This document shows positions 27,745-33,058 of a stretch of DNA of 64,000 bases, in pieces (position 1 is the stretch's first letter; every line of letters starts with the position of its first letter). Position numbers and translations under genes: made by a program. The stretch covers positions 6,549,001 to 6,613,000 of the forward strand of contig NZ_CP120737.1 in the NCBI RefSeq assembly GCF_029581195.1, written 5' to 3'. This DNA comes from Solwaraspora sp. WMMD791. GTDB taxonomy: Bacteria > Actinomycetota > Actinomycetes > Mycobacteriales > Micromonosporaceae. The notes beneath the pieces are model-generated. The model did not search any database, was not told the DNA's origin, and was given only the letters and a program-made list of their open reading frames with translations.

Positions 27745-27833
27745 GCGGCCACTTCGCTGGCGTCGGCTGCCCGCAGTGACCGCCGGTGCCCGTCCTTCCT
27801 GCCTGCCCGCAGGCCCCCACGGCGAGGAGCGAC

Positions 27834-29981
27834 ATGAATCGACAAGCAACGACGGCGCGCGGCAGGCGGTGGCGCGCCGGCCTGGTGGCCGGCGGCGTGA
27901 CCGCGGCACTGGTCGGCGGCAGCATCGCGATCGCGGCCAGCGCCCACGCGGCGGCCGGCTGCCGCGTGGTGTACTCGGCACCGTCGCAGTGGCCCGGCGG
28001 TTTCACCGCCAACGTGGCCGTCACCAACCTCGGCGACCCACTCAACGGCTGGCGGCTGACCTGGACCTTCCCGGCAGGCCAGCAGGTGACCCAGGCGTGG
28101 AACGCCACCGTCACCAGCTCCGGCAGCCAGGTCACCGCGACCAACGTCAGCTACAACGCCAACCTCGGCACCAACGCGACCGTCTCGTTCGGTTTCAACG
28201 GCTCCTGGACCAGCAGCAACACCGCGCCGACCTCGTTCGCCCTCAACGGGGTCACCTGCACCGGCAGCGTCGGCCCGACGACCCCGCCGCCGACCACCAC
28301 GGCACCACCCACCACGGCACCGCCCACCACCGCGCCACCGACCCCGACCCCGACCGTCACGCCGCGCCCGCCGGGCGACCCGCAGGCGGTCGTCAACGAC
28401 ATGCAACCCGGCTGGAACCTCGGCAACACGCTGGACGCCACCGGCGACAACCTCGCCGGCAGCGGCGAGACCTCCTGGGGCAATCCACTGGTCACCCAGG
28501 CGCTGATCCGCACCATCAAGGCCCAGGGTTTCAAGAGCATCCGGATCCCGACGACCTGGACCCACCACCACGGCGCGGCCCCCAACTACACGATCGACGC
28601 CACCCGGCTGGCCCGGGTCAAGCAGGTCGTCGACTGGGCGCTCGCCGAGGACCTGTACGTGATGATCAACCTGCACCACGACTCGTGGCAGTGGATCAAC
28701 ACGATGCCGAGCAACCGCAGCACCGTCCTGGCCCGCTACTCGGCACTGTGGACCCAGCTGGCCACCACGTTCCGGGACTCATCACCCAAACTGCACTTCG
28801 AGAGCGTCAACGAGCCGCAGTTCGCCAACAGCTCAGGGGACGCACAGAACGCCCAACTGCTGGACGAGCTGAACCGGACGTTCCACCGGATCGTCCGCGG
28901 GTCCGGCGGCAACAACGCCACCCGGCTGCTCATCCTGCCGACCCTGCACACCTCGTCGGACCAGGCCCGGCTGGACGAGCTGGCCAGCACCTTCACCGCA
29001 CTGGGCGACCGTAACCTGATCGCCACCGTGCACTACTACGGGTACTGGCCGTTCAGCGTGAACGTCGCCGGCGGGTACCGCTTCGACGCCACCGCCCAGC
29101 AGGACGTGATCGACTCGCTCAACCGGGTGCAGAACACCTTCGTCTCCCGGGGCATCCCGGTCGTCATCGGCGAGTTCGGTCTGCTCGGCTTCGACCGGCA
29201 CACCGGCACCATCCAGCAGGGCGAGAAGCTCAAGTTCTTCGAGTTCTTCGGCTACCACACCCGGACCCGCAACATCGCCACCCAGTTGTGGGACAACGGT
29301 CAGCACCTGGGCCGGACCAGCTTCCAGTGGAGCGACCCGGAGCTGATCGCCCAGATCAAGTCCGCCTGGACCACCCGGTCCGGCACCGCCGCCAGCGACA
29401 TGATCTTCGTGCCGCGTACCGGCGCCGTCACGGCCAAGAGCCTCGCACTGAATCTCAACGGGCTGAGCTTCCAGTCGCTGCGCCAGGGCAGCACCAACCT
29501 GGTGCAGGGGACCGACTACACGGTCAGCGGCAACCAGCTGACGTTGACCGCGGCGGCGCTGACCCGGCTGGTCGGCAACCGGGCGTACGGGGTGAACGCG
29601 ACCCTGCACGCGCACTTCTCCGCTGGCGTCCCCTGGCGGATCAACATCCTCTCGCACGACCGGCCGGTGCTGCAGAACGCGACCGGCACCACGTCCGCGT
29701 TCAGCATCCCGACCGCCTTCAACGGCGATCAGCTGGCCACGATGGAGGCAAAGTACGCCGACGGATCCAACGCCGGCCCGCACAACTGGACGTCGTACAA
29801 GGAGTTCGACGTCACGTTCGCGCCGAACTACAGCGCGAACACCATCTCGTTGACGTCGACCTTCTTCGCCGAGGTCAACGACAACGCCCCGGTCACGCTC
29901 ACCTTCCACTTCTGGAGCGGGACGACGGTCACCTACACGGTGCGTCGTACCGGCTCGGCGGTGACCGGCACGGTCGGATAG
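27834..29981 (+). CDS. secreted GH5 endoglucanase with CBM2, Ig-like and CBM46 domains
   Basis: Extracellular endo-beta-1,4-glucanase or xyloglucanase. In order: signal peptide (1 to about 41), CBM2 cellulose-binding domain (about 42-145, opening CRVVYSAPSQWPGGFTANV), Thr/Pro linker (about 147-182), GH5 catalytic barrel (about 184-515), CBM_X2/Ig-like module (about 520-600) and CBM46-like module to the end at 715. The acid/base is E327 (SVNEP) and the nucleophile E447 (VIGEFG). The catalytic-Ig-CBM46 layout is known from GH5 subfamily 4 enzymes. The ATG at 27834 has GAGGAG upstream. It is a monocistronic gene with its own promoter and a terminator at 29997. Confidence 0.94.
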   Translation: MNRQATTARGRRWRAGLVAGGVTAALVGGSIAIAASAHAAAGCRVVYSAPSQWPGGFTANVAVTNLGDPLNGWRLTWTFPAGQQVTQAWNATVTSSGSQVTATNVSYNANLGTNATVSFGFNGSWTSSNTAPTSFALNGVTCTGSVGPTTPPPTTTAPPTTAPPTTAPPTPTPTVTPRPPGDPQAVVNDMQPGWNLGNTLDATGDNLAGSGETSWGNPLVTQALIRTIKAQGFKSIRIPTTWTHHHGAAPNYTIDATRLARVKQVVDWALAEDLYVMINLHHDSWQWINTMPSNRSTVLARYSALWTQLATTFRDSSPKLHFESVNEPQFANSSGDAQNAQLLDELNRTFHRIVRGSGGNNATRLLILPTLHTSSDQARLDELASTFTALGDRNLIATVHYYGYWPFSVNVAGGYRFDATAQQDVIDSLNRVQNTFVSRGIPVVIGEFGLLGFDRHTGTIQQGEKLKFFEFFGYHTRTRNIATQLWDNGQHLGRTSFQWSDPELIAQIKSAWTTRSGTAASDMIFVPRTGAVTAKSLALNLNGLSFQSLRQGSTNLVQGTDYTVSGNQLTLTAAALTRLVGNRAYGVNATLHAHFSAGVPWRINILSHDRPVLQNATGTTSAFSIPTAFNGDQLATMEAKYADGSNAGPHNWTSYKEFDVTFAPNYSANTISLTSTFFAEVNDNAPVTLTFHFWSGTTVTYTVRRTGSAVTGTVG

Positions 29982-29996
29982 CCCGTACGGCCCCTG

Positions 29997-30029
29997 GTGG
30001 GTGTCGCCGGCGGGCTCGGCGGCACCCAC
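29997..30029. terminator. terminator hairpin between GH5 gene and Cys-rich peptide gene
   Basis: Arms 29997-30009 and 30017-30029 pair over 12 of 13 positions plus one G-T wobble, with a 7-base loop. The hairpin serves both converging transcripts. Confidence 0.65.
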
Positions 30030-30043
30030 TGTGGCGTCCGGCG

Positions 30044-30106
30044 TCAGCAGCAGTCCGGACCGCAGCAGTCCGGCTCGCACTCGCAGCGCGTGGTCGGCTC
30101 CAGCAT
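30044..30106 (-). CDS. 20-residue cysteine-rich peptide behind the MerR gene
   Basis: Tiny open frame with six cysteines in 20 residues (positions 8, 10, 14, 15, 19, 20; core CECEPDCCGPDCC), no signal peptide. A strong ribosome-binding site (AGGAGG) lies 9 bases before its ATG, inside the last two Arg codons of the merR-type gene. It starts 5 bases after that gene's stop, so coupled translation is likely. The cysteine spacing suggests metal binding, like a minimal metallothionein or metal sensor-buffer; this is inference. A terminator follows directly. Such a short frame could arise by chance, but the ribosome-binding site, cysteine content and tight position argue for a real gene. Confidence 0.6.
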   Translation of the reverse strand: MLEPTTRCECEPDCCGPDCC

Positions 30107-30111
30107 GTTCG

Positions 30112-30540
30112 TCACCTCCTCTCCTGGTCGTCCGGTGGGCACCATCGGCCCGGCTCCGGCGGCGGGCAGCCGGCCGTCGGCAGCGCGGCGGCCATCGCCG
30201 CCATCTCGGCCCGCAACGCGGTCAGCCGGGCCAGCTCCGCGTCGACCTCAGCCATCCGACGGCGCAGCAACTGCTCGGCCGGTTCACACGGGCAGACCCC
30301 GGTGTCGCGGACAGCGAGCAGGTCGGCGATCTCCCGGAGCCGCAGCCCCAGTCGCTGGCAGCCCTGAATGAACCGCAACCGGTCGAGAGCATCCGCGCCG
30401 TACCGTCGGTAGCCGGCAGCTGACCGGGGCGCGGGTGGCAGCAGCCCGGCCCGCTCGTAGTAACGGATGGTGTCCGGTGCCACGCCGGCCGCGGCGGCCA
30501 GTTCGGCGACCCGCATCCCGGTGCTGGTGTTGGTGCCCAT
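30112..30540 (-). CDS. MerR family (heavy-metal type) transcriptional regulator
   Basis: DNA-binding regulator that senses a metal or thiol ligand. The winged helix is MRVAELAAAAGVAPDTIRYY, then ERAGLLPPAPRS and GYRRYGADALDRLRFI. A dimerisation helix follows (about residues 75-125). Cysteines occur as CPCEP at about residue 84 and CPPPEPGRWC near the C-terminus, likely ligand residues. The ATG at 30540 was chosen because the 22-bp operator at 30555-30576 would otherwise be inside the gene. The last codons (GAG AGG AGG TGA) double as the ribosome-binding site of the Cys-rich peptide. The regulator probably controls itself and that peptide. Confidence 0.88.
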   Translation of the reverse strand: MGTNTSTGMRVAELAAAAGVAPDTIRYYERAGLLPPAPRSAAGYRRYGADALDRLRFIQGCQRLGLRLREIADLLAVRDTGVCPCEPAEQLLRRRMAEVDAELARLTALRAEMAAMAAALPTAGCPPPEPGRWCPPDDQERR

Positions 30541-30554
30541 GTCGACGACGGTAG

Positions 30555-30576
30555 ACCTTGGAGTGCACTCCAAGGT
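30555..30576 (-). promoter_or_regulatory. MerR-type operator/promoter
   Basis: Perfect 22-bp palindrome with half-site ACCTTGGAGTG. On the minus strand it lies between a -35 of TTGACC (30579-30574) and a -10-like TCTACC (30556-30551), with an 18-19 base spacer, the stretched layout typical of MerR-activated promoters. It sits 15 bases upstream of the regulator start. Confidence 0.8.
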
Positions 30577-30601
30577 CAAGTCCGGTGCGCCAGGCCGTCA
30601 C

Positions 30602-33058
30602 TCAGCCGACGAATCCGGGCTGACGGGTCCGCAGATCGCCCATCCGGATGAACTCGATCGTCGCAGACGCCAGGCCGAACGCGGTGAGGGCCGTCAGCGC
30701 CCAGAACGGGGACAGCCACGCGGTCGGCACCGCCAGCGGTACGACGACGGCGGCGCTGACCACCCGGTACCAACTCACGACGCCCCAGAGCCGCCACCAG
30801 TACACCTGGTTGACCAGCAGGTAGAACGCCGCGCCCCAGTAGATGGCGTAGTGCCCGTACCGGATCGCGGCGTCGTCGTGGTCGCCGACGATCTGGTGCA
30901 GGCCGTAGGCGACCATGATGATGCCGGCGATCATCGGCAGATGCAGGTAGGTGAAGCCGTCCCGGGCGAGTTTCGCCCGGTCGACGCCGGTCCTGGCCTC
31001 CAGGGCCAGCCGGGCCGAGTCGATGGTGGGGAAGTAGGACCACCAGAGCAGGACCAGGATGACCGCGGCGATCCCGGCGACCAGGATCACGCCGCCCGAG
31101 ATCGAGCGCTCGCCGACCGCCAGACCGACCGAGATGACCGCCTGGCCGAAGGCGATCAACGTGATCAGCGCGTACCGGTCGACCCAGTGCCGGGTGGAGC
31201 GGGGCCGCCAGGTGTGGACCCCGGTGGGATAATTGCCGACAAACTGGACGGTGATCGCCGCGACCCACAGCACCGTGACCGCAGGCGTTCCCGCGATGGG
31301 GTCCGGCGTCGCCAGCTCCACGACGGCGTAGCCGGCGAGCAGCAGTAGGGCGACGCTGGACGGTACGGCGGCCTGCCGGCCCAGGTCGCGCAGCGTCGGA
31401 TCGGTCCGCGACGCCTGCCACAACAGGATGGCCTGCATCACCTGGCCGGCGAGGTAGCAGAACACGATGATCAGCAGTCCGGGCAGGCCGCCGGCTGCCG
31501 GGTCGAACGCCTGCGGGGCGGCGATCCCGATCAGCAGGACCGCCGTGGCCATCCCGACGGTGCTCAGCCGGACCATGGTGGTCTCGGTGCGCACCGCGTT
31601 GGTCAGCCAGGAGTACGACGTCCAGGCCCACCACAGCATCGCCAGCAGGGTGAGCCCCCGGACGATGCCCCACCCCGAGGTCTGCCGGGTCATCAACACG
31701 GTGACCTGGAGGAACGCGAAGACGAAGACCAGATCCAGGAAAAGTTCCCGGGGGACCACGCCGTGCAGCCGGGACGCCTCGGACTCGACCGTGCGGTGCA
31801 GTTGGCTGTGCCGGCCGTGGAACACGGTGCGGTCGGCGAGGATCATCGCGATGAGGCCGGCGGCCAGCAACGCCAGCGCACCCAGCACCGACAGCCGGGT
31901 GGCCAGGGGGAGCAGGCAGAGCAGCAGCCCGATGCCGAGCAGCGGGCTGCGACCGAGCAGCCGACCGGTCTGCCACTCGAATCCGACGAGGGCGGCGAGG
32001 TAGATCAGTACGCCGCCGTAGACGATCAGGACGTGCGCCGGGCCCCAGGCCGTGCCGGAGGCACCGGAGGTGGCCGCGACCGCCTGCTTGAGGCCGAGCG
32101 CCAGCACGATCAACCCGGCGATCATCGGTAGGTGCATCCCGCTGTAGGCGTCCCGGGCCATCCGGGTCTGGTCGACGACGGCCAGGCGGGCCAGGGCGTG
32201 CTCGGCGAGGATCTTGGCGAGGTCGAAGTAGCTCCACCACAGCAGGGTGACGATCAGCATCCCCAGCCCGGCGGCGGCGATCAGCGACCAGGTGACCGGG
32301 ATCGCGGTGCCCGGCCCGCCGCCGGTGCCGATCGAGATGATCGTCTCGCCCAGGGCGACCAGAACCACCAGGGCGTGCCGTTCGGCGAGGTGCCACGGCG
32401 ACACCATCTGCCAGGTGCCCCGCCCGACGGCTGCCAGGATCATGAAGTCGATGGCGAGCGCGATCGTGAACAGCCCGATCCTCGCCAGTTCCGGGTCGAT
32501 CGCCGCCGGCAGCAGATCTATCAGCCACCGCGGCAGCAGCGCGGCGGCGAGCAGCACCGGTGCCGAGGTGGCGAGGGTCGCCCACGCGATGGCCGCCGGC
32601 CGGCGGCCGGGTGGGCCTTCGTGCCAGCGGGACCGGGTGAGGATCGCCAGGACGCTGGTCCGTACCGCGAGGTAGCCGAGCACCACGACCAGCGGGCCGG
32701 CCAGGCTGCCGGGCCGGTCGACGAACGTCTCGGGAACCGCGACCCCGACGATCAGCAGTACGGCGGCGATCCCGGCCATCATCGGTGGCACCCCGCCACG
32801 GTCGACGTGCACGACGTTGCCGAGCCAGACGCAGGCGGTCCAGCAGTGCCACAGCAGCAGGACGACCAGGATGCCCCGGATGGTGCCGAGGACGGCGGTG
32901 TCGGCCGCCATCAGGCTGGTGATCTTGAGAAAGGCGAAGACGAAGAGTACGTCGACGAAGAGTTCCATCCAGCTGACGTCGCCGGTCACCCGCGCGTCGC
33001 GCCGCACCAGGCGTAGACCGCCAGCGGTCGGATGCGGATGCGGGCTCTCGTCGTGCAC
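30602..33058 (-). CDS. tandem-duplicated LtrA family membrane protein
   Basis: LtrA ('low temperature requirement A') proteins are membrane proteins of unknown biochemical role, about 400 residues long. This one has 818 residues and two LtrA copies. Copy 1 starts ELFVDVLFVFAFL at about residue 32; copy 2 starts ELFLDLVFVFAFL at about residue 438. Each has about ten hydrophobic segments and repeats WWSYF and MHLPMIAG/LHLPMIAG. The conserved glycine-glutamate of copy 1 (ALGETIISIG, E238) is Gly-Gln in copy 2 (AFGQAVISVG, Q639), so the halves have diverged. GTG start. The MerR operator lies in the 61 bases after the stop. Confidence 0.88.
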   Translation of the reverse strand: MHDESPHPHPTAGGLRLVRRDARVTGDVSWMELFVDVLFVFAFLKITSLMAADTAVLGTIRGILVVLLLWHCWTACVWLGNVVHVDRGGVPPMMAGIAAVLLIVGVAVPETFVDRPGSLAGPLVVVLGYLAVRTSVLAILTRSRWHEGPPGRRPAAIAWATLATSAPVLLAAALLPRWLIDLLPAAIDPELARIGLFTIALAIDFMILAAVGRGTWQMVSPWHLAERHALVVLVALGETIISIGTGGGPGTAIPVTWSLIAAAGLGMLIVTLLWWSYFDLAKILAEHALARLAVVDQTRMARDAYSGMHLPMIAGLIVLALGLKQAVAATSGASGTAWGPAHVLIVYGGVLIYLAALVGFEWQTGRLLGRSPLLGIGLLLCLLPLATRLSVLGALALLAAGLIAMILADRTVFHGRHSQLHRTVESEASRLHGVVPRELFLDLVFVFAFLQVTVLMTRQTSGWGIVRGLTLLAMLWWAWTSYSWLTNAVRTETTMVRLSTVGMATAVLLIGIAAPQAFDPAAGGLPGLLIIVFCYLAGQVMQAILLWQASRTDPTLRDLGRQAAVPSSVALLLLAGYAVVELATPDPIAGTPAVTVLWVAAITVQFVGNYPTGVHTWRPRSTRHWVDRYALITLIAFGQAVISVGLAVGERSISGGVILVAGIAAVILVLLWWSYFPTIDSARLALEARTGVDRAKLARDGFTYLHLPMIAGIIMVAYGLHQIVGDHDDAAIRYGHYAIYWGAAFYLLVNQVYWWRLWGVVSWYRVVSAAVVVPLAVPTAWLSPFWALTALTAFGLASATIEFIRMGDLRTRQPGFVG

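Follow-up and report, generated by a model that had tools for sequence, protein, structure and literature searches.

A merR gene is followed by an unannotated cysteine-rich frame

The window analyzed here is a 64,000-nucleotide stretch of the Solwaraspora sp. WMMD791 genome (contig NZ_CP120737.1). It carries a merR gene followed, 5 bases past the stop codon, by the ATG of an unannotated frame for a 20-residue peptide with six cysteines, MLEPTTRCECEPDCCGPDCC (Table 1). The original prediction, made from the letters of the window, had described this frame at the same distance and had placed its ribosome-binding site inside the last two Arg codons of the regulator. Both points hold: the merR 3′ end reads GAG AGG AGG TGA CGAAC ATG and contains AGGAGGTGA, which uses exactly these codons, 5 bases before the peptide ATG. 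The predicted Shine-Dalgarno (SD) duplex has an energy of −21.8 kcal/mol.

Table 1 Features of the merR–peptide unit in the window
Feature	Position	Strand	Basis or remark
−35-like element TTGACC	30574..30579	minus	sequence; TTGA(N2)-20 bp-TANNNT pattern in relatives
MerR operator, perfect 24-bp palindrome GACCTTGGAGTGCACTCCAAGGTC	30554..30577	.	fills promoter spacer
−10-like element TACCGT	30548..30553	minus	20 bp from −35; merR ATG 7 bases further
merR gene, 142 aa	30540 (ATG) to 30112 (TGA)	minus	Pfam MerR_1 and MerR-DNA-bind above cut-offs
Shine-Dalgarno AGGAGGTG for peptide	30113..30120	minus	overlaps the final pair of Arg codons and the merR stop codon
Unannotated peptide gene MLEPTTRCECEPDCCGPDCC, putative mini-metallothionein	30106 (ATG) to 30044 (TGA)	minus	conserved Cys frame
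U-less hairpin, possible terminator	29997..30029	.	between convergent merR–peptide unit and GH5 gene

Upstream on the same strand lies a gene for an LtrA protein with two LtrA stretches (30602-33058), which ends 61 bases before the merR ATG; on the opposite side, an ordinary GH5 cellulase gene with CBM2, CBM_X2 and CBM46 domains (27786-29981, plus strand) converges on the unit.

The prediction had also closed the unit with a terminator. The hairpin is present, and its paired arms are kept in 5/5 same-genus loci while the loop varies; it carries no T run, a scan for T-run terminators found none, and the terminator claim is accordingly weak. Folding of the 66-base stretch was only moderately unusual, with 5 of 200 shuffles equally stable (z = −2.24).

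Cysteine-rich frames are conserved behind orthologous merR genes

Related loci were gathered from four kinds of sample: a family sample of 354 genomes, 34 of them with a MerR match at E ≤ 1e−30; GTDB contigs, with the best 80 of 485 confirmed loci kept; class and phylum samples searched at E ≤ 1e−40, with matches in 6/394 and 23/396 genomes (own genome counted in both); and plasmids, with three loci included from five matched records. Under a strict rule (at least 4 Cys, at least 20% Cys, at most 45 residues, start between −45 and +40 of the merR stop), a Cys-rich frame followed 59 of the 64 distinct orthologs among the best 80 of 485 loci and the family loci, or 60 of 65 when L111, placed in the distant set by its number, is counted as an ortholog. 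The same rule found no frame behind 31 distant MerRs and scored 6 of 2139 other ORFs of at least 120 codons in the fetched loci; this last control leaves out the unit region, an earlier count of 31/1401 having been dominated by frames overlapping the unit. None of the 22 MerR paralogs scored in the own genome (23 fetched) had such a frame.

A looser rule (start −60 to +60, 18% Cys) was applied to 87 distinct MerRs from 101 loci, merged only where the MerR tails were identical. It returned 73 frames, 2 fusions and 12 MerRs with neither, and L148, scored as a frame, proved to be a fusion on inspection. We therefore count 72 separate frames and three fusions behind the 87 regulators, where the original prediction had named the lack of a conserved frame behind orthologs as the finding that would speak against it. 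The set of 87 is weighted towards Glycomyces and Geodermatophilaceae, and alignment A1 holds 41 of 60 peptide-bearing MerRs, so that the class and phylum censuses lean towards peptide-bearing loci. The same kind of peptide is carried by relatives in many other actinobacteria.

The unit is nevertheless dispensable: a MerR match at E ≤ 1e−30 occurs in no more than those 34 of the 354 genomes in the family sample. Within the genus, five of seven genomes carry it; G304 has no unit at the LtrA–cellulase junction, and G305 has a decayed copy only.

The operator fills a 20-bp promoter spacer and occurs once in the genome

The perfect 22-bp operator noticed in front of merR turned out to be the core of a perfect 24-bp palindrome. 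A point absent from the original prediction is that this palindrome fills the 20-bp spacer between TTGACC and TACCGT; a palindrome in a 19-20-bp promoter spacer is a mark of the metal-sensing MerR branch. A TTGA(N2)-20 bp-TANNNT promoter precedes merR in 78 of the 87 relatives, a count that misses L036 and L037, whose longer N-termini put the element, present in both, outside the search range. The start codon follows the promoter by 6-8 bases in 64 of these 78, and the dyad score is 6 of 8 or better in 72/87 relatives. Because the merR ATG lies only 7 bases after the −10-like element, the merR–peptide message is probably leaderless.

In the 6.93-Mb genome, the 22-bp operator core occurs a single time at up to 3 mismatches. 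A looser promoter pattern likewise gave a single match in the own genome; of the six other same-genus genomes, two also had one match each, and two more carry the promoter with a single-base change that takes it outside this pattern. Among the 15 neighbor clusters listed (loci up to L103, flanks of 1.5-3 kb), none recurred beyond the own genus, Glycomyces and a third genus group. With a single operator and, within these flanks, no conserved neighbors outside close clades, the unit seems to regulate itself only, which fits the earlier description of it as self-contained.

The peptides share cysteines, CC and CxC motifs and a strong Shine-Dalgarno sequence

The related separate frames encode 11-32 residues, with a median of 20 over 59 frames. 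Across these 59, the residue composition is 36% Cys, 14% Asp, 11% Gly, 7.5% Glu, 0.9% His and less than 1% aromatics, with 129 CC and 114 CxC motifs. Metallothioneins are small proteins with about 20-35% Cys in CC, CxC or CxxC motifs and few aromatics; this family, and the window peptide with 6 Cys in 20 residues, has that composition. Peptides from distant lineages have little in common beyond the cysteines. None of the ten Cys is lost in any of the 11 Glycomyces-type peptides, where they are encoded by TGC or TGT, while other residues vary. All pairwise codon differences among them came to 193 synonymous and 323 non-synonymous, a crude measure by which the non-Cys residues are fairly free and overall selection is not strong.

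The SD duplex has a family median of −19.5 kcal/mol, compared with −3.7 for a control set of 723 start-like codons within merR, a single one of which reached −19.5 kcal/mol or beyond; peptide starts were partly picked by SD energy, which biases the median towards strong SDs. The chosen starts of L081 and L166, with weak SDs, are doubtful. Peptide starts occupy all three frames relative to merR, and a frameshifted MerR C-terminus was rejected on this ground. A RiPP precursor was also rejected, as the 15 listed neighbor clusters include no recurring maturation gene.

Searched against Pfam and NCBIfam, the window peptide matched no family, known metallothionein models included, a search in which a 20-residue query has little power. 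When the Cys pattern was sought across the own genome, 50 matches came back, fewer than the 89 of the reversed-pattern control. Selection on the peptide frame is strongly supported by the comparison of relatives; translation is very likely, and the peptide is very probably a real, extremely small, putative metal-binding protein.

The regulator carries cysteines of the metal-sensing MerR branch

A Pfam scan of 30112-30543 returned PF13411 (69.2 bits; cut-off 21.6), PF09278 (61.3; 25.4) and PF00376 (57.3; 28.2), and the protein thus has both the MerR HTH and the MerR-DNA-bind domain of the family. Its predicted MerR fold rests on these models together with an AlphaFold model of mean pLDDT 86. 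The window MerR fell below every cut-off of the NCBIfam equivalogs MerR, ZntR, CadR-PbrR and CueR, for example at 90.4 against 150.85 bits (MerR) and 79.9 against 151.45 (CadR-PbrR).

Its putative metal ligands are C83, C85, C125 and C134. Counted over the 60 peptide-bearing MerRs only, C83 and C85 (CxC) are present in 60/60, C125 in 57/60, and W133 and C134 in 60/60. C85, the second Cys of a CPC motif, falls in the alignment on the Cys that is supplied by the opposite subunit in CadR and MerR; C125 and C134 lie beyond the stretch aligned to these two proteins. With C85 as inter-subunit Cys and C125 and C134 as the two metal-loop Cys, the window MerR has the cysteine set of the metal-sensing branch. 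The residue at the C85 position is Ser in CueR and Cys in CadR and ZntR, and has been suggested to decide between +1 and +2 ions, according to passages of PMC9909328. The conserved Cys positions, together with the ATPase-linked relatives described below, fit the earlier proposal of a metal sensor. A strict tie of the peptide to the second tail Cys was rejected, since L143 has a peptide without that Cys; L084, L144 and L085 lack both.

Pump and peptide as candidate alternative outputs

Three peptide-less members, L084, L144 and L145, have a like operator in a 20-bp spacer facing a divergent P-type ATPase gene. L084 comes from a Mycobacterium contig and L145 from a plasmid of M. abscessus, and since they share one MerR tail, the ATPase-facing operators represent two lineages rather than three, one from Mycobacterium and one from a Streptomyces plasmid; L084 and L145 may be a single plasmid lineage. 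The ATPases of L144 and L145 exceed the cut-offs of the heavy-metal and cadmium families and, by less, that of the copper family. By eye, the peptide-less L085 has a partial P-type ATPase-like frame about 2 kb off. All 23 loci with the P-type ATPase motif DKTGT in the fetched flanks lack a Cys frame, and on L143, a Rhodococcus plasmid, the peptide is present with no annotated ATPase in its vicinity. These distributions suggest that pump and peptide are alternative outputs, and they provide the best evidence on the class of ligand. The own genome encodes three heavy-metal P-type ATPases above cut-off, so the peptide would not be its only protection.

Other members depart from the two-gene layout in various ways. 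The 12 MerRs with neither frame nor fusion are L062, L084, L085, L099, L102, L144, L156, L157, L167, L168, L171 and L172. Directly after merR, L167, L168 and L172 encode longer Cys-rich proteins (98, 81 and 63 aa) with CxCGC-like repeats, which scored above no Pfam cut-off. In L099 the frame is 19 residues long and contains 2 Cys. In several of the 12 peptide-less members the absence has, as far as seen, a reason that is not metal-related: two have a thioredoxin-like gene and one, L157, an epimerase-like gene (by eye) in the peptide's place. Past the first peptide of L101 there is a possible second small frame with a Lys-rich start and the end GSCGCGCGCAAK.

In L153/L173 (L173:7625-9243, minus), a MIP channel and an arsenate-reductase-like protein follow the unit on the same strand. 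The latter is below the NCBIfam cut-offs and above the Pfam cut-off for LMWPc. These neighbors hint at As(III) in that lineage, and metals may therefore differ between members.

A proposed sensor with a putative mini-metallothionein, and its rivals

Gene order, the conserved promoter and operator, the strong SD and a frame selected for its cysteines are evident from the sequences compared. The reading that best accommodates them, and one we consider probable, is a self-regulated two-gene unit of a soft-metal sensor and a putative mini-metallothionein. A dimer of the metal-sensing MerR would sit on the operator within the over-long (20 bp) promoter spacer. By analogy with CadR, a thiophilic metal would bind C85 of one subunit and C125/C134 of the other, perhaps with C83; binding would re-align the DNA so that the promoter fires and yields a leaderless merR mRNA. 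Ribosomes finishing merR would restart at the strong SD over its stop and make the 20-residue, six-Cys peptide, which would chelate metal as a miniature metallothionein and thereby help to shut the sensor off. From the leaderless start onwards, through translation, metal binding and feedback to the identity of the metal, these steps are what we infer from the layout: sequestration of metal by the peptide is likely and feedback on its own sensor possible, and the metal is most likely soft and divalent (Zn, Cd, Pb and Hg are candidates), though it could also be As(III). The comparison thus supports the original prediction, which was right in what it observed and largely right in how it read it.

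The peptide might instead act mainly within the sensing circuit, exchanging metal with its own MerR to set threshold and shut-off and contributing little to bulk detoxification. No operator other than that of the unit was found in the own genome, sensor and peptide share one probable transcript, and in L148, L163 and L169, from three different families, MerR and Cys peptide form one frame. At two decayed loci (L102 and G305), merR is broken and the accompanying Cys-rich frame does not close. The fusions, however, retain an internal SD-like stretch and ATG, so that free peptide may still be made; L062 has a peptide start with an unclosed frame beside an intact-looking merR; and the efflux-linked relatives show detoxification to be a normal output of this MerR group. 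We regard a mainly circuit-bound role as doubtful.

Improbable, in our judgment, is a thiol or redox buffer in place of a metal store, with a MerR that responds to thiol stress or electrophiles. A chain this rich in Cys could be modified by oxidants or electrophiles, and L156 and L171 encode, in the peptide's position, a 92-100-residue thioredoxin-like protein with CPVC and CPDC motifs (Thioredoxin_3 and Glutaredoxin above Pfam cut-offs for L156; L171 judged by eye). Such a buffer would not explain the metal-type Cys positions conserved in MerR, the heavy-metal ATPases of peptide-less relatives, or the CC/CxC spacing and acidic, nearly aromatic-free composition of the peptides.

Polycysteine leader frames exist in mycobacteria, and the Cys-dense, short peptide with a hairpin behind it resembles them; its translation could then sense Cys-tRNA supply, as a cysteine attenuator, with no role as metal ligand. 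But the peptide is a second cistron behind a metal-type MerR, not a leader frame upstream of an operon, and outside close clades no gene follows it in the listed clusters (loci up to L103, flanks of 1.5-3 kb), which leaves nothing to attenuate. Nor does attenuation fit the in-frame fusions or the tandems of L155, L158 and L161, in which two different Cys peptides stand behind one merR; we rejected it as very improbable. In these tandems, one peptide is of the GCPCCGCPCGDCGG type.

Finally, a chance open frame in GC-rich DNA, suggested by the shortness of the frame and the lack of a family-model match, is ruled out for practical purposes by the conservation controls (59/64 orthologs against 6/2139 other ORFs), by cysteines kept while other residues vary, by the strong SD, and by starts in all three frames relative to merR, which show that the peptide is no shadow of the merR frame.

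Beyond the two-gene unit of sensor and putative mini-metallothionein, we tentatively propose a minimal sensor-buffer class widespread among actinobacteria, a generalization that goes further than we can yet expect to hold: a self-activating MerR and an 11-32-residue thiolate peptide on one leaderless mRNA, the unit its own only target, the peptide providing negative feedback, and pump and peptide swappable as outputs. If true, some members of the class would be, to our knowledge, the smallest metallothioneins in bacteria that are genetically encoded. The peptides point to a hidden family that tends to escape standard gene calling, being short and alike mainly in their cysteines, and that can be found through the partner gene. 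Should the peptide bind metal, it may be the smallest bacterial type of metallothionein and a ready-made minimal cassette for metal sensing and buffering, and would test how short a chain can still serve in physiological metal control. The family may also present an evolutionary switch between pump and chelator under one kind of operator.

Comparison with known systems

A search of PubMed Central full text, a scope that leaves subscription papers and preprints outside, found no published description of a MerR–Cys-peptide unit. The bacterial metallothioneins SmtA/BmtA and MymT share with the peptides a Cys-rich, nearly aromatic-free composition and a metal-stress setting. They have about 50-60 residues, and SmtA uses His ligands, whereas the peptide family has 11-32 residues and 0.9% His, and the window peptide no family-model match. 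In size, the peptide recalls fungal metallothioneins, which have 25 residues.

The metal-sensing regulators MerR, ZntR and CadR/PbrR, as treated in passages of PMC9909328, share with the window MerR the fold family, an operator in a 20-bp spacer, and a conserved inter-subunit Cys with two tail Cys. The window MerR differs from them in its CPC motif and CPPPxPGxWC-type tail and in lying below every equivalog cut-off, and its operator precedes its own gene and the peptide, not a transporter. In PbrR-PbrD lead resistance, a MerR-type sensor likewise controls a metal-binding protein (PMC9909328, in part); PbrD, however, stands in an operon with an efflux pump, and the window unit has no pump.

The nearest precedent is CadR-Zrd of Pseudomonas aeruginosa, in which, according to sections of PMC12301328, a MerR-type Zn/Cd sensor activates Zrd, a small Cys-based metal protein that had lacked annotation and has been likened to metallothioneins. 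The pairing of a MerR-type sensor with a small Cys-based protein is the same. As described there, Zrd contains two Cys4 sites of the zinc-ribbon type and is encoded at a separate locus flanked by converging genes, whereas the product of the window unit is a peptide, of 11-32 residues in the family, encoded directly behind its regulator.
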